Source: Methanosarcina sp. MTP4 (lineage in GTDB: Archaea; Halobacteriota; Methanosarcinia; Methanosarcinales; Methanosarcinaceae). Taken from it: 64,000 bases of DNA. Below the pieces are notes generated by a model. The model did no database searches, had not been told where the DNA came from, and saw only the letters and a program-made list of their open reading frames with translations. The stretch is taken from positions 3,372,808-3,436,807 of the forward strand of contig NZ_CP009505.1 of NCBI RefSeq assembly GCF_000970045.1. The letters are read 5' to 3'. A program made the translations under genes and the position numbers. Positions 16,426 through 49,924 of the stretch are shown here, piece by piece. Within the stretch, counting starts at the first letter, position 1. Each line of letters starts with the position of its first letter.

Positions 16426-18330
16426 ATGGCAGCAGACATCTTGAACCAATTAGCGGAAGCTGTCGTCGAAGGAGAAGAAGACGACGCAGAAGAACTCGCA
16501 CAGAAAGCCCTCGAAATGGGCGTTGACCCCTATGAAGCAGTCATCAACGGCCTAGCAAAAGGAATGACCATTGTCAGTGACCAGTATGAGAAAGGAGAAG
16601 CCTTTGTACCCCACCTCCTGCTCGCATCCGGAGCAATGTATGCAGGCATGGACATCCTCGTCCCACACATGGTCAAAGACGGGGACTCCAAGCAGGCTGT
16701 AGGTATCATAGGAACCATCGAGGGAGACGTGCATGACATTGGTAAGAACCTTGTTAAGACCATGCTCAGTGCAAACGGGTTTGAAATGATTGACCTGGGC
16801 GCAGACGTCCCCATCGAGAAGTTTGTGGAAACCGCAAAGGAGCGCAAGGCCGACCTGATTTCCATGAGCGCTCTTATGACCACGACCATGACAAACATGG
16901 AAAAGGTCATTGAGATCCTCCAGGAAGAAGGTATCCGCGACGCCATGAAGGTCATGGTAGGAGGAGCCCCCGTCTCAGAGGAATACGCAGCAGCCATCGG
17001 CGCGGACTCCACTCACCCCGACGCCCTGCACGCAAGCGCCTGGGCAACCGAATTTGTGAAAGAACTCGGGACTGCGGATGAGCGCTGGAGTGACGAGAAG
17101 ATCAACCTGGGCAAGATCAAGTACAGGGAGATCCTGGCAAAGAAAGTAGTCTCCGAGAAAGTCGACATCGGAATTGAGACTGCAAACAAGATCAAGGAAG
17201 AGTTCGAAAGTGTGGGTGTGAAGGTCAAGGAAGAAATGACCCACATCGATAGGACCGTGTCCGCAATGTCCGACAAGAAGGTTGACCGTCTGCCTGTCTA
17301 CCCCCTTGCCTGCGGTGTCCTCAGAAAGTTTGCCCCTGTCACCTACAAGGAATACGCAACAAACGAAGACGCCTTTGTCGAGAGTGCATTCCTCGGGTCC
17401 AAGTACCTGGACATGGACATGTTTGTGGGGCTTATTGACCTTTCCGCAACCTCCGCGGACTTCGGATGCAAGATCAAATACCCCGAAGACGATACCCCCT
17501 CCTCCGAAGGCCACCTTAAAGACTACGATCAGCTTGAGGTCCCCGAACTCAAGGAAGGCACCCGTGGCTACGAACTTGTCATGGCTTCAAAGAAGGCAAA
17601 GGAAAAACTCAACAGTGAACTCAACACTCCCTTCGTTGGCTTCCACGAAGGCCCGCTTCTTACCCTTACCCAGCTCATGGGAGCGGACAGGGTCCTTATG
17701 GACATGAAGACCAACCCTGAAGTCGTCCTTGAAGCGGTCCAGAAGTGTACCGACTACATCTGCCAGCTTTCCGAGCTCTTCTTCGAAGAAGACGCCTGTG
17801 ACGGGCTCTGTGTGGACAACCTCTGGTCCAACAACATCATCATGAGCGAGGAAGACTACTGGAAGTTTGACGGGAAGTTCGTCTATGAACAGCACGTTCC
17901 GCTCTTCAAGAAGTACAACCAGCCCTACATGATCCACAACTGTGCAGACGCGGTTCATTTCGAGACCCAGATCAGGAAGTTCGGAACATCCCTCTACAGC
18001 TACGCATACTATGAAAAGACCAGGGAAAAGGGTTCCCAGAACTACGCAGACCTCATCCCCAAGTACGGAGATATCTGCTGTATGATGGGAGAAGTCAACC
18101 CGGTTGAGTTCATGGACGGCTCCGCTGCAGGGGTCCAGAAGGTCACAGACGATACGAAGACCCTGCTCGAAAACGTACTCCCCGTACTCAAGGAGAACGG
18201 GCTCCAGTCCAAGTACGTCATGTCTACCGGCTGTGAAGTCCCACCAGGAGGCCCGCTGACCACAGTCCAGGCAATGGTGAACACCGTTAAGGAACTCGGT
18301 CCGGAACTCCAGAAGTCAATCATAGGGTGA
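16426..18330 (+). CDS. Corrinoid/methyltransferase fusion, methylsulfide:CoM methyltransferase (copy 1)
   Basis: This 634-residue cytoplasmic protein belongs to the MtsD/MtsF/MtsH family. Residues 1-215 are a cobalamin-binding domain with GDVHDIGKN; His103 is the expected lower cobalt ligand. The rest is a MtaA/MtbA-like (uroporphyrinogen decarboxylase fold) methyltransferase with zinc ligands His504-x-Cys506 (IHNC) and Cys603 (TGCEVPP). It should move methyl groups from methanethiol or dimethylsulfide through its own corrinoid to coenzyme M. I chose ATG 16426 (MAADILNQL), which aligns with the start of copy 2. An in-frame ATG at 16345 would add 27 unrelated residues and falls only about 15 nt after the predicted transcript start. 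Which of D, F or H it matches cannot be decided here. Confidence 0.9.
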   Translation: MAADILNQLAEAVVEGEEDDAEELAQKALEMGVDPYEAVINGLAKGMTIVSDQYEKGEAFVPHLLLASGAMYAGMDILVPHMVKDGDSKQAVGIIGTIEGDVHDIGKNLVKTMLSANGFEMIDLGADVPIEKFVETAKERKADLISMSALMTTTMTNMEKVIEILQEEGIRDAMKVMVGGAPVSEEYAAAIGADSTHPDALHASAWATEFVKELGTADERWSDEKINLGKIKYREILAKKVVSEKVDIGIETANKIKEEFESVGVKVKEEMTHIDRTVSAMSDKKVDRLPVYPLACGVLRKFAPVTYKEYATNEDAFVESAFLGSKYLDMDMFVGLIDLSATSADFGCKIKYPEDDTPSSEGHLKDYDQLEVPELKEGTRGYELVMASKKAKEKLNSELNTPFVGFHEGPLLTLTQLMGADRVLMDMKTNPEVVLEAVQKCTDYICQLSELFFEEDACDGLCVDNLWSNNIIMSEEDYWKFDGKFVYEQHVPLFKKYNQPYMIHNCADAVHFETQIRKFGTSLYSYAYYEKTREKGSQNYADLIPKYGDICCMMGEVNPVEFMDGSAAGVQKVTDDTKTLLENVLPVLKENGLQSKYVMSTGCEVPPGGPLTTVQAMVNTVKELGPELQKSIIG

Positions 18331-21012: not shown

Positions 21013-22620
21013 ATGGCAAGCGAACTGAAAACGTCTAACGGTACTAATCCGGAAAGCCGGGACGGAATGGCAAACCTGGCAAGGACAATAAGAGACAAGA
21101 TCCTCATCAACGAACCGGTAAAAGAAGAAGGGCTTATCGACCAGCTAGAAAGGGCTGCAAAGGAAATCGACGAGCTTCTGGCATCATCCCTGGGTCCTAA
21201 AGGGATGAACAAGATGGTAGTAAACCCGGTGAACGACGTATTCATAACAAACGACGGGAAGGTCATCCTCAAGGAAATGGACGTCCTCCACCCGATCGTA
21301 ACTACCCTCAAAAAGCTTGCGGAATCCATGGACAAGGCCTGCGGGGACGGAACTAAAACCGCAGTGATCCTGGCAAGCAACCTGATTAAAAACGCAATTG
21401 AGCTGATAAGAGCCGGAGTCCACCCCACTATTATAATAGAAGGCTATGAACTTGCCCTGCAAAAAGCCTATGAAATGCTCCGGTACAGCATAAGGCAGGC
21501 AGGAGAAGAGGATGTCAGGACCACGATTACATGCTCTGCCACAGGGAAAGGAGTGGAGAGAAAGCAGGCGGAAGAGATTACGGACGTCGTACTGGGAGTT
21601 ATCGCCCACCTGAGCGAGACGCAGAAAGGCCGCCTCGACCTCAACCGGAACGTGAAGGTCCTGAAGAAGGTGGGAGGGCCGGAGATGGTGGCCCTGGAAG
21701 GCCTGATAATGGACGAAAACCCGGCAAGGACGGATATGCCAAAGGACTTTGAAAACCCCTCGGTGCTCCTGATCAATTACGACCTCAAGATTAAAAGCGG
21801 ATACCTCAACCCCCAGCACAACCTGAGAATGGATTCCGTGCAGACAGCCCTTATGTTTGAGGAAAGAAAGAAGGAGATGTGCAGGGAGCTTGCGGGAAAA
21901 ATAATCAATTCGGGCGCAAACGTCCTCTTTTGCGAGGGAGATATAGACCCCTATATCGAGACCCTGCTTCGAGACAGCAAGATACTGGCTTTCAAGAAAC
22001 TGAAAATGAAAGACCTGGAAAAGCTTTCTGAAGCCACGGGTACGACCCTGATGAGCAAGAATGACGAGATTCTGCCCCGGCACCTCGGTAAAGCCGACAG
22101 GATTAAGCTTGAAAAACGAAACAGGGAAAACTTCGTATTCATAACCGTGAAGGGAAAACCGATTTCCACGATCCTGATATGGGACCCGACAAGGTACGGG
22201 CTGGACAAGGTGGAAGAAGCAGTGGATGACGCCCTTAACAATGCTGCTTTCCTCATAAAAAACAGGGAGATAGTAAACGGCGGAGGCGCAATTGAGTTTG
22301 AACTGGCCCACATGATCAGGATATTTGCGGCAACACAGACAGGAAAGAAACAGCTGGCTATCCTGGCATACGCCGGAGCCCTGGAAAAGGTTCCGGAAAC
22401 CCTGGCAAGAAATGCGGGAATGAAAACCATCGATGCGATGGTGGAGATGAGAAACGCCTACGCCAGAGGAGTGGAGGCAAGGATAGATATCTCAAGGAAA
22501 GTTACGGATAAGGGGCCGAAAGTCTACGATTCGGCAACGATCAAGAAACTTGCCCTGATATCGGCAACAGAAACCGCAAGAAACGTCCTCAGGATTGACG
22601 AGATAATCCCAAAAGCCTGA
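21013..22620 (+). CDS. Diverged group II-like chaperonin (copy 1)
   Basis: This 535-residue thermosome-fold protein has LGPKGMNKM (residues 60-68), ITNDGKVIL with Asp81, GDGTK at 111-115, an AVDDAL element near 393 and NGGGAIEFELA near 408. It differs from ordinary thermosome subunits. GDGTT is GDGTK, and the C-terminus ends RIDEIIPKA without the Gly-Met-rich tail. It probably belongs with the extra Hsp60-4/Hsp60-5 proteins described for Methanosarcina. It may fold or assemble the products of neighbouring mts and hydantoinase genes; this is inference. ATG 21013 is preceded by GGGGA. The structured RNA at 22655 begins about 40 nt after the stop. Confidence 0.88.
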   Translation: MASELKTSNGTNPESRDGMANLARTIRDKILINEPVKEEGLIDQLERAAKEIDELLASSLGPKGMNKMVVNPVNDVFITNDGKVILKEMDVLHPIVTTLKKLAESMDKACGDGTKTAVILASNLIKNAIELIRAGVHPTIIIEGYELALQKAYEMLRYSIRQAGEEDVRTTITCSATGKGVERKQAEEITDVVLGVIAHLSETQKGRLDLNRNVKVLKKVGGPEMVALEGLIMDENPARTDMPKDFENPSVLLINYDLKIKSGYLNPQHNLRMDSVQTALMFEERKKEMCRELAGKIINSGANVLFCEGDIDPYIETLLRDSKILAFKKLKMKDLEKLSEATGTTLMSKNDEILPRHLGKADRIKLEKRNRENFVFITVKGKPISTILIWDPTRYGLDKVEEAVDDALNNAAFLIKNREIVNGGGAIEFELAHMIRIFAATQTGKKQLAILAYAGALEKVPETLARNAGMKTIDAMVEMRNAYARGVEARIDISRKVTDKGPKVYDSATIKKLALISATETARNVLRIDEIIPKA

Positions 22621-22654
22621 ATGAAAGCTGAGTAATCAGAAAAAATTGAAAAAA

Positions 22655-22790
22655 TCAATCACGCTGATGACAATGCCTTAAATACCTCTCTCCAGGGCAT
22701 TGTTCATCTATTCCCAAAATAGTGAGTTAGACCTGCAACGCCTTCTCAGGAGAGGTACATTTTGCCATTTTAATGTGCTTTTCCTGGAAG
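22655..22790 (+). ncRNA. Structured RNA repeat, copy A (after chaperonin 1)
   Basis: First hairpin: GATGACAATGCC (22666-22677) pairs with GGCATTGTTCATC (22696-22708), with one bulged T. The conserved linker AGACCTGCAACGCC follows. Second hairpin: CAGGA/TCCTG (22747-22751 and 22782-22786) and GTACA/TGTGC enclose a loop with TTTGCCATTT at 22761-22770. The same order of elements recurs at 23238 and 30121. It could be the chaperonin 3' UTR or a separate RNA. Confidence 0.75.
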
Positions 22791-23237
22791 AAAGAAAGTC
22801 TACAGCCCCAAAATGCCCCGGAACGTCCGGTCCTGGACCAAAGCCCCCGGAATAGATACAGCATTACTCCATTCCGGGCACTCCATTTTACCAGGATTGG
22901 AAACAGTATAGAAAATTCCGGGAAATCCCCGGGACCGGAGATACCCTGCCACCTCGAACACCGGGTAGAAAACGGGGCGCCGAACCTCAAAAAGTTCAGG
23001 GATGGATGCACTGCCTTCAAGCAGGACAATTTCCGCTTGCAAGAGGGCCGTATCACAAAGCCCGGGACACATTTAGACGAAACTGTAGTGCCCCTTCTGT
23101 CATCATTTATAGGGCAGGACCGGGGGCGCTGCGGGATAAACGGACACCTGCACCACAGCAAGAGAAAAGACGAAAAGCAGAAAATCAAAGTTGCGCTGGC
23201 GCACCCCGCAACAAGTTGGCGGGGTATTTGACTGAAA
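22791..23237. other. GC-rich hairpin-rich spacer between RNA copies A and B
   Basis: This stretch is visibly richer in G and C than other intergenic DNA in the window. It holds many inverted repeats, such as GGTCC-T-GGACC, CCCGGAAT (22846-22853) with ATTCCGGG (22871-22878), and GTTGCG/CGCAAC near 23190-23210. Open frames exist on both strands but none has a ribosome-binding site or recognisable product. It may be part of a long structured RNA or decayed extra copies. Confidence 0.5.
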
Positions 23238-23530
23238 TGAATCACGCTGATGACAATGCCTTAAATCCCCATCTCTATGGGCATTGTTCATCTATCCCCC
23301 AAGAAGTGAGTAATAGACCTGCAATGCCATCTCCCGGGACTGTAAATGTTTGCCATTTTTATGCGCAGTCCCGGGAGGTAAACGGCCTATACACCCATAA
23401 AAGCCCCGGAAAGCTAGATCCTGGACCTTGTTTGCCATTTCAATGGTCTATAACGGATCGGTAAAACGGAGGCCCTATAAGAGGAAATGATGCCCCATCG
23501 TTTTTTACATCCAGTCTCCACTGGGGCATC
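23238..23530 (+). ncRNA. Structured RNA repeat, copy B
   Basis: First hairpin: GATGACAATGCC (23249-23260) with GGCATTGTTCATC (23280-23292). Second hairpin: a perfect 12-bp stem CTCCCGGGACTG (23331-23342) / CAGTCCCGGGAG (23366-23377) with TTTGCCATTT at 23349-23358 in the loop. Third hairpin: GATCC...TGGACCTTG / CAA-T-GGTCTA...GGATC, which presents TTTGCCATTT (23431-23440) as the exact apical loop. A final stem GATGCCCCA (23489-23497) / TGGGGCATC (23522-23530) may end the transcript. Confidence 0.75.
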
Positions 23531-23801
23531 AGGACCTTACCATGGATTCAAGATAGAGACACCTGCCTCAAAACCGGCTTTTCAATTTTGTCGAGCGCAG
23601 GGTCAGTAGCCAAAAAATACCTGAAGAAATACACAGGATCGAGAATACCCACAGTTCCAACATAGGGAAGATTAGGGAGAATATAAATATTTTTGGATTG
23701 AAAAATTATAAAAATGGTTTTGTATGTAATAAACTCTCAAAGAGGATTTTCACACACGTGAACTGTGCAAATTCCAAAGGATTTCAAGGGAAGTTAGAAA
23801 T

Positions 23802-23930
23802 ATGGACCTTTTGCTCAAATCCCTGACAGGTAAAGATGTGGACAAATTACCTGTACTCCCTGCAGATCTAACAGGCACTTCGAAACTTATACAGAGAGCA
23901 GGCCTTCCGGATAGAAAAAAGGTATTATAA
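23802..23930 (+). pseudogene. Fragment of a corrinoid-type methyltransferase
   Basis: A 42-codon frame starting MDLLLKSLTGKDVDKLPVLP resembles the N-terminus of MtaA/MtbA-like methyltransferases of the uroporphyrinogen decarboxylase family, which begin with an L..L.G..VDR.PV pattern. It stops in TAA after 42 codons, and the rest of the domain is absent. I read it as a remnant left by rearrangement in the methyltransferase island. A real small protein is unlikely. Confidence 0.45.
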
Positions 23931-23991
23931 GTTTCCCTTGAGACCTGAAAAATAAAACAAATTTATTCGTGGAAATGGAGAGAGGAAAAAC

Positions 23992-24198
23992 ATGAAAAAA
24001 ATAGGTGTTTCTTCCCAATTGTGTGAGTATACAAGGAAAATAAGTGGAAAGATCAAATGGGATAAAAGCTCTGTGGAACGTCAGGTTCCATATGCAACCT
24101 TAAACATTTGCAATATAGAAAAAAGACTTTCTGTTGAGGTCCCGGAGTTGAATTTCTGGAGTTGCCCCCAGGCAAAGGGTCAGAAGTTGATATTATGA
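23992..24198 (+). CDS. Shortened relative of the Cys-rich small protein at 32765
   Basis: This 68-residue frame starts MKKIGVSSQLCEYTRKISG, behind a GAGAGGAAAA site. Its first 25 residues resemble the start of the 142-residue protein at 32765 (KVSSYICGITHTIMGRVEGDK). Its middle PYATLNICNIEKR resembles PPAVFNICSIEKE of that protein. About 60 central residues, including most of the Cys cluster, are missing. Its TGA overlaps the ATG of the following regulator (ATGA at 24195-24198), a layout typical of translational coupling. So it may be a decayed gene whose translation still matters for regulator expression. Confidence 0.5.
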   Translation: MKKIGVSSQLCEYTRKISGKIKWDKSSVERQVPYATLNICNIEKRLSVEVPELNFWSCPQAKGQKLIL

Positions 24199-24968
24199 GC
24201 GGGATTGTAGATTTGATCTTTTATTCTGAAAAAAGGAAAGAAATTCTTATATTGCTTGCTGAGAGCCCAAAAAGCGCCGACGAAATCAAAAACGGACTTT
24301 GTGGCGACACACTTTCAATAACTCCACAGCTAAAAAAGCTGAAGGACATGGACATTATTGTCCAGCACGAAGATACCTTCGAACTCACGGATATAGGGAA
24401 AATAATTGTTAAAAAAATGCTGCCTCTAACCGAACTCTTCCAGGCCTTTGAGGACAACAACGATTACTGGTCAAAGCACGACCGAAGGCCAATCCCCGAG
24501 CACCTGATAAATAAAATGCACATGCTTGGGAAATGCAAAGTGGATGAGCCTGACCTTGGTCACCTTTTCGAATTCCCGAACGAGCTGAAAGAAATAGTAT
24601 TCAGATCCACAAGGCTCAGAGTGTTTTACTCGTTCTTTTGCCCTGAATCTCCTGCAATTCAGGAAACCTGCGCAAAAAAAGGGACAAAAATGGACCTGAT
24701 TATGGATGAAAAAGTATACAGCAGATTAAAAAACGACTTTGAGGACACATACAGGACCCTTCTTGAAAATAATGTTCCACTCTACGTTTACAAAGGAGAA
24801 ACAAAACCCTCTTCATTTATGGTCACCGATGAGTTTATAACCCTGAAACTCTTTAGAAAAAAAGGAGAGTTTGACCACCGAAGGTTAATGAGTTTCAACA
24901 AAAGTGCCATTGAATGGGGAGACGAGCTGGCGGATTACTACATCGGACTCTCGGAGAAAGTAAATTAA
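24195..24968 (+). CDS. Msr-type winged-helix regulator (DUF1724 family), second copy
   Basis: This 257-residue paralogue of the protein at 14664 has the same layout. The N-terminal winged helix contains SEKRKEILILLAESPKSADEIK and SITPQLKKLKDMDII. The C-terminal DUF1724-like domain contains SSFMVTDEFITLKLF. ATG 24195 aligns with the paralogue; a longer frame from TTG 24162 would add 11 unrelated residues. It overlaps the upstream short gene by 4 bp. It stands 720 bp before mts copy 2 and is the likely regulator of that gene. Confidence 0.82.
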   Translation: MSGIVDLIFYSEKRKEILILLAESPKSADEIKNGLCGDTLSITPQLKKLKDMDIIVQHEDTFELTDIGKIIVKKMLPLTELFQAFEDNNDYWSKHDRRPIPEHLINKMHMLGKCKVDEPDLGHLFEFPNELKEIVFRSTRLRVFYSFFCPESPAIQETCAKKGTKMDLIMDEKVYSRLKNDFEDTYRTLLENNVPLYVYKGETKPSSFMVTDEFITLKLFRKKGEFDHRRLMSFNKSAIEWGDELADYYIGLSEKVN

Positions 24969-24997
24969 AGTGAAAACTGCAACATATCCTGCTGTAA

Positions 24998-25024
24998 CCA
25001 GCGGTGTATTTTTTGCACCGCTGG
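24998..25024 (+). terminator. Perfect 9-bp hairpin after the second regulator
   Basis: CCAGCGGTG and CACCGCTGG form a perfect 9-bp stem around a T-rich loop, 30 nt after the regulator stop. It separates the regulator from mts copy 2. Confidence 0.6.
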
Positions 25025-25046
25025 AATAAATTCAAAACCATAAAGG

Positions 25047-25116
25047 TTTTAATCTTGTTTTTTAATCTTGTTTTTTAATCCTGCTTTTCAATCCTGCTTT
25101 TCAATCCTGCTTTTTT
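25047..25116. repeat. 14-bp tandem repeat
   Basis: About five imperfect copies of a unit close to TTTTCAATCCTGCT follow the terminator. Confidence 0.75.
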
Positions 25117-25249
25117 GATACACCGTCCAGTAAATATTGAATCAACGTGCCCTGAACAATACCCTCAAATATTTCAAGAGGGAAAATTTTTGAAGGCACA
25201 TATTTTGACTGGGTCCCATTATCCAGGAAGGAATCTTTTTTTGCCTCCA

Positions 25250-25450
25250 TTCCTAAAAGGCACACTTTCCTATTTGATCTAAATTCCCGAAAGGTATTCT
25301 TTCCTATTTGACCCAGGTTCCCAAAAGAGGAAGATCTGAAAACATGGAGATACCCGCAAAAGAGAAAAGTTGAAAAAAGAATGTCACAGAAAATATTTAA
25401 TATAATATAAAAAACCGCGTCGGCTATGCTATATATTATTGAAGGCTACT
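25250..25450 (+). promoter_or_regulatory. Promoter region of mts copy 2
   Basis: TTTCCTATTTGA occurs at 25266-25277 and again at 25300-25311, inside a 34-bp tandem duplication that also repeats TTCCC and AAAG. A TATA-rich run (TTTAATATAATATAAAAA) begins near 25397, which would give a 5' leader of about 260 nt before the ATG. The paired motif may be a regulator site. Confidence 0.45.
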
Positions 25451-25689
25451 AATTGAATGGTTACTACCATAGCAAAAAGGTGAACATCAGGAAGCCGGAA
25501 AAACAGTTATTTTCAGACCAATCCGATGAAAGATCATCTATTCAGGGAAGCAACGGTTGGATGGGCATCAAGAGCTCTATGGAAAAATTAAGGGGCAGGG
25601 ATTTCTGAACTGACCCTTACCTGCAGCATTATATGGAAAAAGGAATGCCGTGACCTGGCACACCTAATCTTGAAAAAAGGAGATTTTCA

Positions 25690-27585
25690 ATGGCAAAAGA
25701 AGACATTTTAAACGGTTTAGCGGACGCTGTAGTTGAAGGCGACGACGACATTGCAGAAGAATTTGCACAAAAAGCCCTTGATGAGGAAGTTGATGCATAC
25801 GAAGCAATTGTCGACGGGCTTGCAAAGGGTATGAAGATCATCAGTGACATGTACGAGAAGGGAGAAGCATTCGTGCCAAGCCTTCTGCTCGCAGCTGACG
25901 CAATGTATGCCGGAATGGACATCCTCACTCCCTACATCAACGCAGACACAAGCGCTGAGCCCAAGAACGTTATCATCGGTACCGTCGAAGGGGACGTGCA
26001 CGACATCGGAAAGAACCTTGTTAAGACCATGATGACAGCAGCAGGTTTCAACATGATCGACCTCGGCTGCGACGTGCCTCTCGACAAGTTCGCAGAAGTT
26101 GCAAAGGAAAAAAGGGCAACCGGTATCTCCATGAGCACACTCATGACCACCACCATGGGCGGCATGGAAACAGTTATCGAGCAGCTCCAGGAGGTAGGTA
26201 TCAGAGACTCCCTCGTAGTTATGATAGGTGGCGCACCTGTTTCCAGAGACTTCGCAGACTCGATCGGCGCAGACGGCACAGCCCTTGACGCCAGCGCAGC
26301 AGTCGAAACCATGACCTCCCTTGCAAGCGAACTTCCTGCCGATTCCTGGAGCGACTCCTCAATCGCAGAAAGCAAGATGAAGTACAAGGAAATCCTGGCC
26401 CAGAAAGGAACAAAAGAAAATATAGACATCGGTCTTATAACCGCCGAAAAGGTCATAGCAGAGTTCGAATCTGTCGTGCCCAAGTTCAACGAAACCATGA
26501 CCAAGATTGAGAGGTTCTCCGCATCCTTCGAAGACAAGAAGGTCGACAGGCTTCCGATCGCAACTCTTGCCTGCGGTGTATCCAGAAAGTTCGTGCCCTG
26601 TTCTTACAAGGAGTACTCGACAAGTGCAGAGAAGTACGCAGAAAGTGCCTTCACAGGTATCAAATACTTTAACATGGACACTTTCGTCGGGCTGACCGAT
26701 CTTTGTGTGGATGCAGCCGACTTCGGCGCAGAGATAAGGTACCCCGAAGAAGACACCCCTGCAGCAATCGGCCACCTTGAAGACTACGAGAAACTCGAAG
26801 TCCCCGAAATCAAGGAAGGAACCCGGGCTTACAACCTCATCCAGGGTAACAAGCTCGCAACCGAGAAGGCCCACTCCATCGATGCCCCCATGACCGCCCT
26901 GATCGAAGGCCCGATGGTCGCCCTGACCCAGATTATGGGAGCAACCCGCGTGCTTTCCGATCTCAGGACCAACCCGGATGTCGTCCTCAAGGCCCTTGAC
27001 AAGACAGCTACCTACGTTGAAGAGATCATGAAGGGCATGTTCGAAGAAGCCCAGCCAGACAACCTCTGTATGGTAACCCTCTGGACCAACAACGTCATCC
27101 TCAGCGCTGACGAATACATGAAGTCCGAAGGTCAGATCATGCAGAACAGGGTTGCTCCGCTCTACAAGCAGTACAACAAGCCAACGGTCATCCACAACTG
27201 TTCCGACGCCCCGCACTGGGACCTCATCAGCAAGTGGGACACCAAATACTACAGCTACACCTTCTATCCGGATGAAGTCAACAAGGGATCCAAGGACCAC
27301 AAGCACCTGATCTCCACCTACGGCAAGGACACAATGTTCGCCGGGGAAGTCAGTCCGATCCTTTTCCTCGACAACTCCCCAGAAGGCATCGAGAAAATGA
27401 AAGCAGACACCGTGAACCTCCAGGAGAGCGTCCTCACCGCCCTCAAGGAAAACGGCATGCAGTCCAAGTATGCGATTGCAACCGGCTGTGAAGTGCCGCC
27501 AGGAGCACCCTGTGACGCTATCACTGCCCAGACCTACACTGTAGCAGAGAAGGGACCGGAAATCTACAAGAAGATCATCGGATAA
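25690..27585 (+). CDS. Corrinoid/methyltransferase fusion, methylsulfide:CoM methyltransferase (copy 2)
   Basis: This 631-residue paralogue of the gene at 16426 has the same architecture. The N-terminal cobalamin domain contains GDVHDIGKN with His104 as the cobalt ligand. The C-terminal zinc methyltransferase has His502-x-Cys504 and Cys600 (IHNC, TGCEVPP). The expected reaction is methyl transfer from methylated thiols to coenzyme M. AAGGAG precedes ATG 25690 at good spacing. The start region reads AATGGCAAAA, perfectly complementary to the loop sequence of the structured RNAs in this island. Codon use is that of a highly expressed gene. A strong hairpin terminator follows. Confidence 0.92.
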   Translation: MAKEDILNGLADAVVEGDDDIAEEFAQKALDEEVDAYEAIVDGLAKGMKIISDMYEKGEAFVPSLLLAADAMYAGMDILTPYINADTSAEPKNVIIGTVEGDVHDIGKNLVKTMMTAAGFNMIDLGCDVPLDKFAEVAKEKRATGISMSTLMTTTMGGMETVIEQLQEVGIRDSLVVMIGGAPVSRDFADSIGADGTALDASAAVETMTSLASELPADSWSDSSIAESKMKYKEILAQKGTKENIDIGLITAEKVIAEFESVVPKFNETMTKIERFSASFEDKKVDRLPIATLACGVSRKFVPCSYKEYSTSAEKYAESAFTGIKYFNMDTFVGLTDLCVDAADFGAEIRYPEEDTPAAIGHLEDYEKLEVPEIKEGTRAYNLIQGNKLATEKAHSIDAPMTALIEGPMVALTQIMGATRVLSDLRTNPDVVLKALDKTATYVEEIMKGMFEEAQPDNLCMVTLWTNNVILSADEYMKSEGQIMQNRVAPLYKQYNKPTVIHNCSDAPHWDLISKWDTKYYSYTFYPDEVNKGSKDHKHLISTYGKDTMFAGEVSPILFLDNSPEGIEKMKADTVNLQESVLTALKENGMQSKYAIATGCEVPPGAPCDAITAQTYTVAEKGPEIYKKIIG

Positions 27586-27593
27586 AACGGGAG

Positions 27594-27634
27594 AAAAGTC
27601 GCTTCCTGAAAAACAAGCAAGCTTCGACTTTTTT
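27594..27634 (+). terminator. Terminator of mts copy 2
   Basis: AAAAGTCG (27594-27601) pairs with CGACTTTT (27625-27632), with a further AAGC/GCTT inside, and ends in a T run. A second T run follows at about 27650. It lies 8 nt after the mts stop codon. Confidence 0.65.
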
Positions 27635-27857
27635 GAGAAAGGATGGGATTTTTTCCCCCCTTTCTTATTTATTCTGAAAATGATTCAGGTTCCCGCCTTT
27701 TTCTGCACAGATATATGCTCCAAAAAAAGTACATGTAAACTCTAAAAACGAATTGAAAAACGAATTGAAAATATAACAAGCTGAAAAAAGCATTCAGCTG
27801 TTTGTAGAAAATGGCGAAGAACCTTTTTTGATTAATTTAGGAAAGAGGTGAAACTGG

Positions 27858-28247
27858 ATGAAATCCCAGAGAAAACCTGAACCTGAAGAAAAACAAATCT
27901 ACACGATTCCTGCAAGCTTTCCTGCTGCTTATGAACAGGAGCCGAGCCACTCATCTAAGAGGACTTTCTTCCGGTATTCTGATATTGAAGCGGATCCTGT
28001 GAACTATGAACTAACTCAGGATTTCGCATGCACTGCATACTCATTTCCTGTGAATTCAGGTCTGCCTTTTGAAACTGGCCTTACAATGGAAGAACCTTAC
28101 GCTTATCTCGGAAGCATTCAGAAACATTCCGAATCCACAGGCATCCAGGGACCGGAAAGAAAAAAGAAACCTGCGGCTAAAAAACAGATAGCTGATCATG
28201 CGTTTACAGACGCTTCTCAGGAAGGGAAGTACGCCCTGACACCATAA
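27858..28247 (+). CDS. Small protein of unknown function between mts copy 2 and chaperonin 2
   Basis: The 129-residue product has no family I recognise. It is hydrophilic, with many Glu, Ser and Pro residues, several aromatic-rich stretches (RTFFRYSDIEADPVNYEL) and a basic patch near the C-terminus (PERKKKPAAKK). No membrane segment or signal peptide is visible. GAGGTG lies 10 nt before ATG 27858, which supports real translation. It occupies the place that the hydantoinase-like gene holds in the first module. A decayed or accessory gene is possible. Confidence 0.6.
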   Translation: MKSQRKPEPEEKQIYTIPASFPAAYEQEPSHSSKRTFFRYSDIEADPVNYELTQDFACTAYSFPVNSGLPFETGLTMEEPYAYLGSIQKHSESTGIQGPERKKKPAAKKQIADHAFTDASQEGKYALTP

Positions 28248-28379
28248 AAAATTGAAAATTCCAAATGCTGGCAAGAACCTCTATCATAAAACTTCCGATA
28301 AAACGCCGGTAAACAAATCCAACAGACCTCTTTCAATAAGAAAACAAAAGAGTCCAGAAAAAACTCCGTAAAACATCAG

Positions 28380-28447
28380 GACGGAAACTTCCAGGGAAAG
28401 CTCTCAAAAGATCAGGAACTTCCAGGGAAAGCTCTCAAAAGATCAGG
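28380..28447. repeat. 31-bp direct repeat upstream of chaperonin 2
   Basis: Two near-perfect copies of a unit containing ACTTCCAGGGAAAGCTC and TCAAAAGATCAGGA stand side by side just before the chaperonin start. Confidence 0.75.
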
Positions 28448-28477
28448 ATTCAAAGCAACGCTGTCTTGGGGAAAAAC

Positions 28478-30085
28478 ATGGCAAGCGAACTAAAAACACC
28501 TGAAGGAACCGATCTTGAAAGCCGGGACGGAATGGCAAACCTGGCAAGGACCATAAGAGACAAGATCCTCATCAACGAGCCGGTAAAAGAAGACGGGCTT
28601 ATCGACCAGCTCGAAAGGGCTGCAACGGAAATAGACGAACTTCTGGCATCATCCCTGGGCCCGAAAGGGATGAACAAGATGGTAGTAAATCCGGTGAACG
28701 ACGTGTTCATAACAAACGACGGGAAAGTGATCTTAAAGGAAATGGACGTCCTCCACCCGATCGTAACTACCCTGAAAAAGCTTGCTGAATCAATGGACAA
28801 AGCCTGCGGGGACGGGACGAAAACAGCGGTGATCCTGGCAAGCAACCTGATTAAAAACGCAATTGGGCTGATAAGAGCGGGAGTACACCCCACAATTATC
28901 ATAGAAGGCTACGAACTTGCCCTGCAAAAAGCCTATGAGATGCTCCGGTACAACATAAGGCAGGCAGGGGAAGAGGACGTCAGGACAACGATTGCGTGCT
29001 CAGCCACCGGAAAAGGGGTGGAGAGAAAGCAGGCGGAGGAGATTACGGACGTCGTACAGGGAGTTATAGCCCACCTGAGCGAGACGCAGAAAGGCCGCCT
29101 CGACCTCAACCGGAACGTGAAGGTCCTGAAGAAGATGGGAGGGCCGGGGATGGTGGCCCTGGAAGGCCTGATAATGGACGAAAACCCGGCAAGGACGGAT
29201 ATGCCAAGGGACTTTGAAGAACCCTCGGTGCTCATTATCAATTACGACCTCAAGATTAAAAGCGGATACCTCAACCCACAGCATAACCTGAGAATGGACT
29301 CTGTCCAAACGGCTCTCCTTTTTGAGGAGAGAAAGAAGGAGATGTGCAGGGAGCTTGCGGGAAAAATAATCAATTCGGGCGCAAACGTCCTCTTTTGCGA
29401 GGGAGATATAGACCCCTATATCGAGACCCTGCTTCGGGACAGCAAGATACTGGCTTTCAAGAAACTGAAAATGAAAGACCTGGAAAAGCTTTCGGAAGCC
29501 ACGGGTACGACCCTGATGAGCAAGAATGACGAGATCCTGCCCCAGCACCTCGGTAAAGCCGACAGGATTAAGCTTGAAAAACGAAACAGGGAGAACTTCG
29601 TCTTCATAACCGTGAAGGGAAAACCGATTTCCACGATCCTGATATGGGACCCGACAAGGTACGGGCTGGACAAGGTGGAAGAAGCAGTGGATGACGCCCT
29701 TAACAATGCTGCTTTCCTCATAAAAAACAGGGAGATAGTAAACGGCGGAGGCGCAATTGAGTTTGAACTGGCCCACATGGTCAGGATATTTGCGGCAACA
29801 CAGACAGGAAAGAAACAGCTGGCTATCCTGGCATACGCCGGAGCCCTGGAAAAGGTCCCGGAAACCCTGGCAAGAAATGCGGGAATGAAAACCATCGATG
29901 CGATGGTGGAGATGAGAAACGCCTACGCCAGAGGAGTGGAGGCAAGGATAGATATCTCAAGGAAAGTTACGGATAAGGGGCCGAAAGTCTACGATTCGGC
30001 AACGATCAAGAAACTTGCCCTGATCTCGGCAACAGAGACCGCAAGAAACGTCCTCAGGATTGACGAGATAATCCCAAAAGCCTGA
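28478..30085 (+). CDS. Diverged group II-like chaperonin (copy 2)
   Basis: This 535-residue protein is nearly identical to copy 1 at 21013. Differences concentrate in the first 15 residues and at scattered sites, while long stretches of DNA in the last two thirds are identical. It shares GDGTK in place of GDGTT and the lack of a Gly-Met tail. ATG 28478 (MASELK) matches copy 1; the frame could extend four codons to TTG 28466, which is not supported. It follows the small unknown gene and is followed at 46 nt by the structured RNA. Likely function: assembly of methyltransferase-island proteins, alone or mixed with copy 1 in one ring. This is inference. Confidence 0.88.
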   Translation: MASELKTPEGTDLESRDGMANLARTIRDKILINEPVKEDGLIDQLERAATEIDELLASSLGPKGMNKMVVNPVNDVFITNDGKVILKEMDVLHPIVTTLKKLAESMDKACGDGTKTAVILASNLIKNAIGLIRAGVHPTIIIEGYELALQKAYEMLRYNIRQAGEEDVRTTIACSATGKGVERKQAEEITDVVQGVIAHLSETQKGRLDLNRNVKVLKKMGGPGMVALEGLIMDENPARTDMPRDFEEPSVLIINYDLKIKSGYLNPQHNLRMDSVQTALLFEERKKEMCRELAGKIINSGANVLFCEGDIDPYIETLLRDSKILAFKKLKMKDLEKLSEATGTTLMSKNDEILPQHLGKADRIKLEKRNRENFVFITVKGKPISTILIWDPTRYGLDKVEEAVDDALNNAAFLIKNREIVNGGGAIEFELAHMVRIFAATQTGKKQLAILAYAGALEKVPETLARNAGMKTIDAMVEMRNAYARGVEARIDISRKVTDKGPKVYDSATIKKLALISATETARNVLRIDEIIPKA

Positions 30086-30120
30086 ACGAAAGCTTAAGTA
30101 ATCAGAAAAAATTAAAGAAA

Positions 30121-30460
30121 TCAATCACGCTGATGACAATGCCTTAAATCCCTCTCTCTATGGGCATTGTTCATCTATCCCTCAATGGAAATAAGACCTG
30201 CAACACCTTACACGGAAAGGTACAAATTTGCCATTTCAAGGTACCTGCCGGGAAAAGGACAGTCTATATCCACAAAGTGCCTCAAAACCAAGCGAGTAAA
30301 CCATGGCTTTGCCATTTTGCCAGGAAATGCCAGCCGGGAAATGAGGCAAAAAAAGTTCGGTGCCCAGAGCCGCATACCTCCAGGCCCCACATGGGCACCT
30401 GAGCCTTAAAAATCAGGAAAATAGACCTCAATGGAACCTTTTTGCCATTTAAAAGGAGGA
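30121..30460 (+). ncRNA. Structured RNA repeat, copy C (after chaperonin 2)
   Basis: First hairpin: GATGACAATGCC (30132-30143) with GGCATTGTTCATC (30163-30175). Conserved AAGACCTGCAACACC follows. Three loop hairpins come next. AGGTAC/GTACCT (30218-30223 and 30241-30246) encloses TTTGCCATTT at 30227-30236. TGGC/GCCA encloses TTTGCCATTT at 30308-30317. CCTT/AAGG encloses TTTGCCATTT at 30441-30450. Stem sequences differ from those of copies A and B while the loop is identical. Confidence 0.75.
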
Positions 30461-31056
30461 AGAGTGTCTAAAACCCTGAAAAACTCTTTTTTGAACCAGC
30501 AGTGCTCTTTAGCCCTATCTACAGGCAAAAGGAGCACTGCATGAAAAATTGGTGGAGGAATCAGGAGATATTTTTAAGAACTACACCCCGATTATTATAA
30601 TGAAAATTAAAAAATTATTTTTTTGCAATAGAACAGAGAAAAATCTAAAACCTAAAAAATAATAAACTCTGTTTTTGGAATTCAATTTTTGTATACTTTT
30701 TTTCATCCGCTGCCGGGATCATCCTGCGATGTGAGGCTCTAAAAAAGAGGAGATCTGAAAAGTCAAAGGTCCTCAAAAAAGTACATCCCTCAAAAAATAA
30801 GGCCCCTTGAAAAATCAAAGCCTTATGCAAAATCAAAGCCATATGTGAAATCAAAGTCCCTCACAAGAGGCCCCGAATTATGTTATATATATTCAATCCC
30901 AAATTTTAGATTAAAAAGAATAATAATCAAACCAGCTAAAACAAGAAGTAGCGAATTTCACAGACTCCTTCAAAAAGGATTTTGGCAGCCTTAAAGCACA
31001 CGGTTGTATTGTTTATTTTTTTCAATTATTTAATCGCTGCAAGCTGAGGTATAAAA
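30461..31056. other. AT-rich spacer before the activase gene
   Basis: No gene is supported. It contains the inverted repeat AGTGCTC (30501-30507) with GAGCACT, and a short tandem repeat of AAAATCAAAGCC type (30800-30870). TATA-like TTATATATATTC near 30873 could drive the activase gene. Confidence 0.45.
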
Positions 31057-48643: not shown

Positions 48644-49924
48644 ATGAATATGGAAGAAATTAAGAAAAATCCAATGTACAATTACCTCCTTCTCCTTGCA
48701 CTTTTCTCGGCAATAGGGCTTCAGGGTTGGCGAACCATTTTTAATAATTTTGCAGTTGATGTGGTTGGAATCAATGGTTATCAGGTAGGAGTAATCCAGT
48801 CGGTCCGGGAGATTCCCGGCTTTTTGACTTTTCTTGTAATATACGTACTTCTTGTGATAAAGGAGCACAGGTTATCGGCTATTTCGGTGTCCTGCCTGGG
48901 AGTGGGAATTTTTCTAACAGGCATCTTTCCTTCGTACTATGGGCTCATATTCACGACATTCGTGATGTCCGTCGGATTCCATTATTTTGAGACTACCAGC
49001 AACTCCCTTTCGCTTCAATATTTTACAATGAATGAGGCCCCACTGGTCATGGGGAAACTAAGAAGTTACAAGGCTGTCGCAAACATCACTGTCGGAGCAG
49101 CCATCTGGTTACTCGCAAACCAGCTCGGGATTAAAGAGAACCTCATGCTTCTTGGGCTCCTCGTGATTGCAGGAGGAGTCTACGCATCCTCCATAAATCC
49201 TGCAAAAAAAGCCACAACTCCCCAGGAAAAGAAAATAGTGCTCAAACGCAGGTACTGGTTATTTTACGTACTTAATTTTCTGAGCGGGGCGAGAAGACAG
49301 ATCTTCGTAGTATTTGCCATTTTTATGCTGGTTACAAAATACGGTTTTGAGGTACAGGATATCACGGTCCTTTTTATCATAAACAACATCATAACTTACC
49401 TGCTGACCCCATACATAGGGAAAGGGATAAACCTGCTTGGAGAAAGGAAAATGCTCTCGATTGAGTACTCCTCCATGGTTATTATCTTCCTCGGCTATGC
49501 CTTTATTGAAAACCGGGGGGTCATATCATTACTGTATGTCCTTGACAATATCTTCTTCCATTTCGCAATGGGAATCAATACATATTTCCAGAAGACCGCC
49601 GCACCGAAAGACATAGCCCCCTCGATGGCTGTTGGTTTCACCATTAACCACATTTCCGCAGTCGTGATCCCCGTCTTCGGGGGGATGCTCTGGATGCTAA
49701 ACTGGAAAATTCCCTTTATCATCGGCGCAGTACTGAGCGTGACGTCCCTTCTTTTCGTACAGATGATAAAGACAGAATCTACAGAAGAAAATGAAACATA
49801 TAATAGAGTGACTGATAAAGCAAGCAATAAAGAAAACGATAAAGCGGATGACAAAGGCAGGAAACTCCCTCATGATGACACGGGCATACAGGAAACGGAT
49901 ACCCAGAGTATAAGTAACTCCTAA
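48644..49924 (+). CDS. MFS-type membrane transporter
   Basis: The product of about 426 residues has about 12 hydrophobic segments and the general layout of the major facilitator superfamily. The first segment is YLLLLALFSAIGLQGWRTIF. Charged loops such as GKLRSYKA come mid-protein. The C-terminal tail after residue 375 is hydrophilic and low in complexity (NKENDKADDKGRK). The start is uncertain: ATG 48644 precedes the first helix. A longer frame from TTG 48536 would add an unsupported 36 residues. The substrate cannot be read from the sequence. The 15-bp repeat downstream already begins in its last codons. Confidence 0.78.
   Translation: MNMEEIKKNPMYNYLLLLALFSAIGLQGWRTIFNNFAVDVVGINGYQVGVIQSVREIPGFLTFLVIYVLLVIKEHRLSAISVSCLGVGIFLTGIFPSYYGLIFTTFVMSVGFHYFETTSNSLSLQYFTMNEAPLVMGKLRSYKAVANITVGAAIWLLANQLGIKENLMLLGLLVIAGGVYASSINPAKKATTPQEKKIVLKRRYWLFYVLNFLSGARRQIFVVFAIFMLVTKYGFEVQDITVLFIINNIITYLLTPYIGKGINLLGERKMLSIEYSSMVIIFLGYAFIENRGVISLLYVLDNIFFHFAMGINTYFQKTAAPKDIAPSMAVGFTINHISAVVIPVFGGMLWMLNWKIPFIIGAVLSVTSLLFVQMIKTESTEENETYNRVTDKASNKENDKADDKGRKLPHDDTGIQETDTQSISNS

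Follow-up and report, generated by a model that had tools for sequence, protein, structure and literature searches.

Methanosarcina species turn several methyl compounds into methane via parallel corrinoid methyltransferases. Among the RNAs to which the element described here can be likened, the bacterial sponges CsrB and RsmZ have many hairpins whose stems vary and whose loop stays constant, and bacterial small RNAs such as RsaE bear C-rich anti-Shine-Dalgarno (anti-SD) loops of the CCUCC type. Within the genus, sRNA162 reportedly targets a bicistronic mRNA for a transcription factor; we know of no multi-hairpin layout with a repeated 10-nt loop for it or for sRNA154. In this study, we analysed a stretch of 64,000 nt of the Methanosarcina sp. 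MTP4 genome (NZ_CP009505.1, positions 3,372,808 to 3,436,807; hereafter the window) and followed a repeated structured RNA, present there in three copies, across related genomes. This RNA constitutes a modular family of up to about 430 nt whose reality we regard as virtually certain, and it is very probably dedicated to methyl-sulfur and a few related corrinoid loci. We further propose, with a chance a shade under even, that the RNA from methyl-sulfur loci pairs with methylamine mRNAs and probably represses them.

Like CsrB and RsmZ, this RNA sets a constant loop on variable stems in many hairpins; unlike them, its loop is UUUGCCAUUU, 10 nt long and devoid of GGA, and it lies at one class of metabolic locus. 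It shares CCUCC-type loops with RsaE, from which it differs in that a second, start-complementary loop type alternates with these, several of each being present. sRNA162 and sRNA154 of Methanosarcina mazei are likewise Methanosarcina regulatory RNAs with a proposed action on mRNAs (PMC3510493). Structured motifs proposed to act from 3' untranslated regions (UTRs) are likewise placed after coding genes (PMC2864571), and the main text of that paper names no methanogen motif (0 occurrences of "methano"). Published 3' UTR families that are in Rfam gave no match in the window, where no Rfam 15 family at all reached its gathering score; the first-pass annotation had known no described family of this form. 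At a loose E-value over 22600-30700, the sole Rfam match was a chance one to a human RNA on the opposite strand. A literature search, mostly covering papers outside subscription, returned no recognised description of an RNA at these loci.

The RNA opens with a hairpin, P1, preceded by the 5' flank UCACGCUGAU (identical in 27/27 aligned rows, which were picked by P1 similarity) and followed by a linker of consensus AGACCUGCAAYRCC. Next come "A" hairpins (M2, M3 and M5) with the loop UUUGCCAUUU, usually one to three per copy, M3 being missing in some species. In fuller copies they alternate with "B" hairpins carrying (A/U)CCUCC, i.e. M4 with ACCUCC and M6 with a second CCUCC motif, which are an addition to the earlier description. 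A covariance model, R1, was built on the first part of the RNA, with P1 as structure and the remainder as sequence.

Six loops TTTGCCATTT had been reported on the plus strand of the window, and they stand where they were placed, at 22761, 23349, 23431, 30227, 30308 and 30441; the opening hairpin and the linker AGACCTGCAAYRCC said to be common to the three copies were found in all of them. Seven TTTGCCATTT sites occur in the window versus 0.46 expected (at least seven in 0/100 shuffles). The seventh, at 49313-49322, stands alone with no comparable hairpin, P1 or linker near it, and is probably due to chance. The six stems differ and still pair, as the annotation held: with the loop held open, their energies are all negative (-23.3, -29.4, -15.2, -14.2, -13.5 and -8.8 kcal/mol). 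It had also made the copies start directly after chaperonin stops, which holds for copies 1 and 3 (CACGC at 22660 and 30126; stops ending at 22620 and 30085) and fails for copy 2 (23243), located about 620 nt past the first chaperonin, 3' of copy 1.

Copy 1 (22660-22798, plus strand, as are the others) has the invariant CACGCT start and corresponds to the R1 match G000:C1:3395462-3395613; only P1 (22666-22708) and M2 (22742-22798, A loop 22761-22770) are recognisable, joined by the linker (22729-22742), and later modules were not recognised in this copy. Copy 2 (23243-23530) comprises P1 (23249-23292), the linker (23315-23328), M2 (23329-23379, A loop 23349-23358), M3 (23413-23460, A loop 23431-23440) and a further hairpin (23489-23530). 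Copy 3 (30126-30540) shows the full layout of six hairpins: P1 (30132-30175), then, after the linker (30194-30207), M2 (30206-30258, A loop 30227-30236), M3 (30278-30348, A loop 30308-30317), M4 (30359-30399, B loop ACCTCC at 30376-30381), M5 (30413-30479, A loop 30441-30450) and M6 (30499-30540), whose B motif is degenerate. In the whole genome of this strain, 8 places were retrieved with the sequence of copy 1 and 12 with R1.

For the comparison of copies, the first 27 were picked by P1 similarity (at most 4 substitutions) and later ones by P1 (at most 6 substitutions), the linker and the first loop (at most one mismatch), giving 55 copies, 47 of them distinct. As copies were selected by these features, the invariance of P1 and of the first loop is partly built in, and the informative part is the contrast between loop and stem. 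The 47 distinct copies hold 104 A sites within one mismatch, the limit applied to later loops, and 86 of these are exact; the main variants are UUCGCCAUUU at M3 (6/28) and GUUGCCAUUU at M5 (4/29). Weak copies, such as mtpCAP copies with the loop TTTGCAATTT or TTTGCTATTT, stand outside these counts.

RNAalifold on MAFFT alignments found P1 and one doubtful helix; since MAFFT fails to align the variable stems, flank-swap tests were used. At 99 distinct A sites, native flanks gave a mean of -17.27 kcal/mol versus -9.05 for swapped ones (0/5000 permutations as good), and separate tests on M2 (27 sites), M3 (16) and M5 (15) agreed. The 32 B sites, among which are B motifs outside hairpins, gave -8.34 versus -5.74 kcal/mol (0/5000). 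Folding favoured the sense strand over the antisense at 65 A sites and the reverse held at 33; B sites showed no strand preference (14 vs 18). In full folds, A loops were unpaired at 0.83 versus 0.45 overall, and two full copies were more stable than shuffles (z of -2.62 and, for copy 3, -4.19). In P1, 95.6% of cells are paired (93.2% in shuffles) and 9 cells carry double-sided changes versus 3.7 in shuffles; these changes fall in only 2 pairs, no more than in shuffles. The flank swaps, P1, the exposure of the loop and the sense-strand preference support the earlier claim of a selected RNA structure with a constant loop, and pairing and a near-constant loop are kept across the copies of related genomes. 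A small-protein gene was considered and rejected: the spacing from P1 to the loop, modulo 3, splits 15/15/9 over 39 copies and thus does not preserve a frame, and in no frame do more than 13/47 copies lack stops within the first 150 nt. Reading of the 5' sequences by eye revealed no consistent promoter. In one copy (L125:7747-8020; G000:C1:683747), the linker-plus-M2 module occurs three times in tandem with an exact TTTGCCATTT in each.

The first-pass annotation had stressed the chaperonin genes. Copies 1 and 3 do follow them, but this emphasis was too narrow: the steadier partner is the methyl-sulfur methyltransferase locus, some copies come after mts or mtpCAP genes without an intervening chaperonin, and the chaperonin link is incidental. 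MtsD, MtsF, MtsH and MtpCAP are methyl-sulfur enzymes of M. acetivorans and Methanosarcina MTP4 (PMC7374477, whose names mtsD and mtsF we use). Neighbours were counted only among genes similar to 18 reference proteins; out of 60 R1 matches, 59 had upstream context (G003:C56 was left out) and 58 were used for the downstream count. Within 6 kb, 36 of the 59 have mts genes and 11 have mtpCAP-like genes (47/59 together); the other 12 are close to a contig edge or next to further corrinoid/URO-D methyltransferase genes. Upstream, the nearest reference gene shares the strand of the RNA in 53/54 cases; the lone opposite-strand case (L114) is at a contig end with hsp60 resemblance on both strands, and its hsp60-like fragment read on both strands (L114:8075-8363) is probably an assembly artefact. 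Downstream, the reference gene is on the same strand in 52/57 cases and on the opposite one in 5/57, and its identity differs between copies.

An M. acetivorans-like genome, whose gene order agrees with that described for the M. acetivorans region (regulator, mtsF, mtaCB, hydantoinase; PMC11619418), has four R1 matches with E <= 0.01, one per known methyl-sulfur locus. Two are 3' of hsp60, at the mtsF locus (5416456) and the mtsD locus (1014128); a weaker one is 3' of mtpCAP (5088301; loop TTTGCAATTT). The weakest, about 1 kb past mtsH (5611845; E 3.7e-4), was missed by stricter filters and nonetheless has two exact A loops and AACCTCC. In the genome of the window, copies occur at mtsD-, mtsF-, mtsH- and mtpCAP-type loci. 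Further ones lie at a second mtsF-hsp60-mtaCB locus (L025) and in other clusters of corrinoid methyltransferase genes (L026, L027); at L026, a tandem pair follows an hsp60 C-terminal remnant. At L104 and L106, the hsp60 gene 5' of the RNA is broken into three and two frames, respectively, with the RNA kept, which could reflect either decay or sequence error.

The covariance-model search of relatives that had been suggested retrieved 20 genomes, all Methanosarcina-like, i.e. 20/111 genomes of the family and the same 20 among 237 of the class, both scans having used strict filters by which weak matches are lost. They fall in three genera: 4 in the genus of the window (g1), 2 in g2 (one of them weak, E 0.0084) and 14/30 in g8. 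A fused full-length Mts protein is found in 52/111 family genomes, among them all 20 with the RNA. In g8, the best sampled genus, the 14 RNA-bearing genomes are exactly those with a fused Mts protein, and the 16 RNA-lacking ones yielded only partial corrinoid matches (36-47% identity, in 13). The other 32 genomes with Mts, which belong to other genera, gave no R1 match; at the RNA-lacking Mts loci inspected, the next reference gene begins 13-202 nt past hsp60 in 19/20, and the twentieth (L212) has none of the reference genes for several kb past hsp60. The RNA thus appears to have been added in the Methanosarcina lineage. A pattern scan of named genomes gave 23 stretches, 12 archaeal (Methanosarcina, Methanosarcinaceae and Euryarchaeota bins) and 11 bacterial; a viral contig found by the pattern was rejected, as it showed by eye no linker-loop layout.

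Both loop types are complementary to parts of ribosome-binding sites. The complement AAAUGGCAAA of the A loop contains a start codon, and the complements GGAGGUUU and GGAGGAUU of the B motifs AAACCUCC and AAUCCUCC are of Shine-Dalgarno (SD) type. In the genome of the window, AAATGGCAAA occurs 66 times versus 28 for the reversed control, 20 of these occurrences being antisense of the RNA's own loops, and GGAGN{3,10}ATGGCAA occurs 48 times versus 12. SD-backed starts with the full AAATGGCAAA are seven, namely those of mtmC (twice), mtbC, mttC, an HdrD-like gene, a corrinoid adenosyltransferase and a 94-aa protein, so that four of the seven are methylamine-type corrinoid genes. By NCBIfam, mtbC is above cut-off (388 bits), a related ATGGCAA start is that of a dimethylamine methyltransferase, and mtmC and mttC are TIGR02370 corrinoid proteins; the exact names of these last two and HdrD are our reading beyond NCBIfam. 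In copy 2, GTTTGCCATTTTT in M2 (23348-23360) is an exact 13-nt complement of the mtmC, mtbC and mttC starts of this genome, with two of its bases paired in the predicted stem.

In order to search for both loop complements as one ribosome-binding site, the pattern GGAGGWTTN{0,6}AAATGGCAA was used on 22 genomes, 15 of the 20 that bear the RNA and 7 of the 16 in g8 that lack it. It occurs at 38 places in these genomes (3 in that of the window) and at none in the reversed control; the 32 places read are, by N-terminal sequence, 18 mtmC-type, 10 mtbC-type and 3 dimethylamine methyltransferase-type starts and 1 repeat. When compared with 145 SD-supported starts sampled from 400 kb of genome, both mtmC genes, mtbC and the HdrD-like gene are below all sampled starts for the energy of A plus B, as is mttC for A alone. 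Within genomes, the A loop is predicted to pair with these targets at -12.1 to -17.0 kcal/mol, and the B motifs at -9.6 to -15.6 kcal/mol in 9/14 genomes.

Sites at the neighbouring mts and hsp60 genes are weaker: the A loop matches 9 nt at the mtsF start (2/145 sampled starts as good), 7 nt at the hsp60 and mtsH starts (16/145) and 6 nt at that of mtsD (27/145). In 19 hsp60 genes of RNA-bearing genomes, codons 2 and 21 are among only four always-GCA alanine columns of 37; codon 2 is within ATGGCAAG in 19/19 and codon 21 within GGAATGGCAA in 16. This constancy at complement sites is suggestive but modest. A purely local model, in which the RNA would act on the AUGGCAA starts of mts and hsp60, was our first idea and was given up. 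ATGGCA starts are indeed more frequent in RNA-bearing than in other genomes for hsp60 (23/23 vs 0/3 after an identity filter, before which none of 15 distinct hsp60 of other genomes had one), mtsD (5/5 vs 1/19) and the URO-D gene (8/14 vs 0/7), and do not change for HydA (0/12 vs 0/18) and RamA (0/13 vs 0/12). Against the local model stand the modest energies, an mtaB score like that of mtsF, two mtsF exceptions in g2, the unfitting mtpC, mtpA and HydA, and the ATGGCA found in 17/18 corrinoid rows of RNA-lacking species.

We put the methylamine genes at the centre of our proposal, and hold pairing with their ribosome-binding sites to have roughly an even chance. A structured RNA would be made from methyl-sulfur methyltransferase loci, either within the mts/hsp60 transcript, forming its 3' part, or as a separate transcript, and its variable stems would present copies of the anti-start loop A and, in many copies, of the anti-SD loop B. 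The order A before B in the RNA is antiparallel to SD before start in an mRNA. The best partners would be the ribosome-binding sites of mtmC and mtbC, for both loops, and of mttC, for A only, the mts and hsp60 mRNAs offering weaker sites; making methyl-sulfur enzymes would then block translation of the competing methylamine system. We infer that this pairing takes place and represses, the choice of repression over activation being a guess. In its most specific form, which is possible and which we advance with more reserve, a multivalent RNA whose alternating anti-start and anti-SD loops are engaged together by the mRNA would switch methylotrophic archaea between methyl sulfides and methylamines at translation, a copy being built into each methyl-sulfur locus of some species.

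Several observations weigh against this proposal. The complementarity at hsp60 and mtsH is modest, 18/145 sampled starts being as good, and mtaB, a methanol gene lacking ATGGCA, equals mtsF in score. The both-loop pattern was picked after mtmC and mtbC had been seen and is not a blind test; the A-plus-B test used consensus B loops, the lowest B energy coming from the loop of another species; and within genomes, B loops were not found by motif in 5/14, some B motifs used lying outside hairpins. In RNA-lacking species, 17/18 corrinoid rows begin with ATGGCA and the both-loop pattern matches as well. As these species carry the same starts, the targets were not shaped by evolution to suit the loop, and the sites are explained by the descent of corrinoid paralogues alone, although a regulator may still exploit a conserved site. 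Full pairing would need the top of the stem to open. A constant loop cannot covary, and one of 10 nt could fit a protein site too. Finally, the RNA sits 3' of an operon and ahead of another gene, which shares its strand in 52/57 cases, and this position leaves room for cis roles.

The protein alternative would make the A loop the site of an RNA-binding protein and the RNA a multi-site scaffold or sponge, as CsrB is for CsrA, the match to starts being a coincidence of A-rich starts. Such a site would suit an invariant block with sharp limits, the same 10 nt in each of three hairpin classes, mRNA sites that match over 6-13 nt, and the copy with three tandem M2 modules (L125). When both loops are combined, however, their complement on methylamine starts is far above expectation, and we consider this explanation unlikely. 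A cis element of its own transcript, either a 3' UTR module for stability, processing or termination or a leader of whichever gene follows (Msr regulator, CobW-like GTPase or methyltransferase), would agree with the same-strand upstream (53/54) and downstream (52/57) genes and with the start of hsp60-linked copies within tens of nt of the stop codon. A repeated 10-nt loop on variable stems would nevertheless be superfluous for stability, and a leader role does not fit every copy, since the downstream genes differ, their distances vary and 5/57 are on the opposite strand; we judge a cis element rather improbable.

A non-autonomous repeat (REP or MITE-like) or a functionless by-product of gene duplication is very improbable. 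The RNA is indeed multi-copy, and duplication moved some copies, as the tandem pair after the hsp60 remnant at L026 indicates; but its orientation to the upstream gene is fixed (53/54), mts or mtp genes are no farther than 6 kb from 47/59 matches, the same kinds of loci carry it across species, its stems covary and it persists beside the seemingly broken hsp60 genes of L104 and L106.

Complements of the A loop were also met outside these starts. Between mttC-like and transporter genes, on the same strand, tandem 28-nt repeats with AAATGGCAAAC (L297:5021-5133; G000:C1:3790011-3790132) each hold a full A-loop complement and might act as a decoy. A 45-nt repeat in G033 (L298:5133-5178) holds GGAGATGTAAAATGGCAAAT, the exact complement of the commonest extended M2 loop, AUUUGCCAUUUUA. 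At four loci (L029, L105, L108 and L121), a URO-D methyltransferase gene is located 3' of the RNA, and two ATGGCA about 14 nt apart precede and begin it. A search for a partner RNA with arrays of AAATGGCAAA showed repeats and ordinary genes and no clear partner.

Around the three copies in the window, all genes listed here being on the plus strand, an mtsD-type fused corrinoid/methyltransferase gene (16426-18330), the locus partner, is followed by the chaperonin (Cpn60_TCP1) gene 5' of copy 1 (21013-22620), which also holds an internal complement site, AATGGCAAA, at about 21066. An Msr-type regulator gene (FilR1_middle domain; 24195-24968) lies 3' of copies 1 and 2, and an mtsF-type fused gene (25690-27585), whose start CAATGGCAAAAG gives the 9-nt match to the A-loop complement, precedes the second chaperonin gene (28478-30085), 5' of copy 3. 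A RamA-like corrinoid reductive activase gene (TIGR04270; 31057-32721) is 3' of copy 3. Over their whole length, the two chaperonin genes share 97% identity, and both begin with ATGGCAAGC, which, with the alike scores of the pair in G002, hints at a recent duplication or gene conversion. The window chaperonin at 21013-22617 is of a divergent type, as thermosome NCBIfam models match it below their curated cut-offs. A reading frame at 27858-28247, between mtsF and the second chaperonin, has relatives at the same place in other genomes and no Pfam match.

Limitation of methyl-coenzyme M reductase raises mtsD and mtpCAP about 100-fold, which the authors compare with what CO or the absence of HdrABC or of pyrrolysine brings about (PMC11267899), and a 2016 study of M. 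acetivorans described as unknown the part that small RNAs play in such regulation (PMC5112694). Whatever its mechanism, the RNA adds a sizeable structured family to the archaea. If our proposal is true, the RNA would be a switch between two foods, methyl sulfides and methylamines, and the question of how methanogenic pathways are ranked would become testable in a genetically tractable archaeon.

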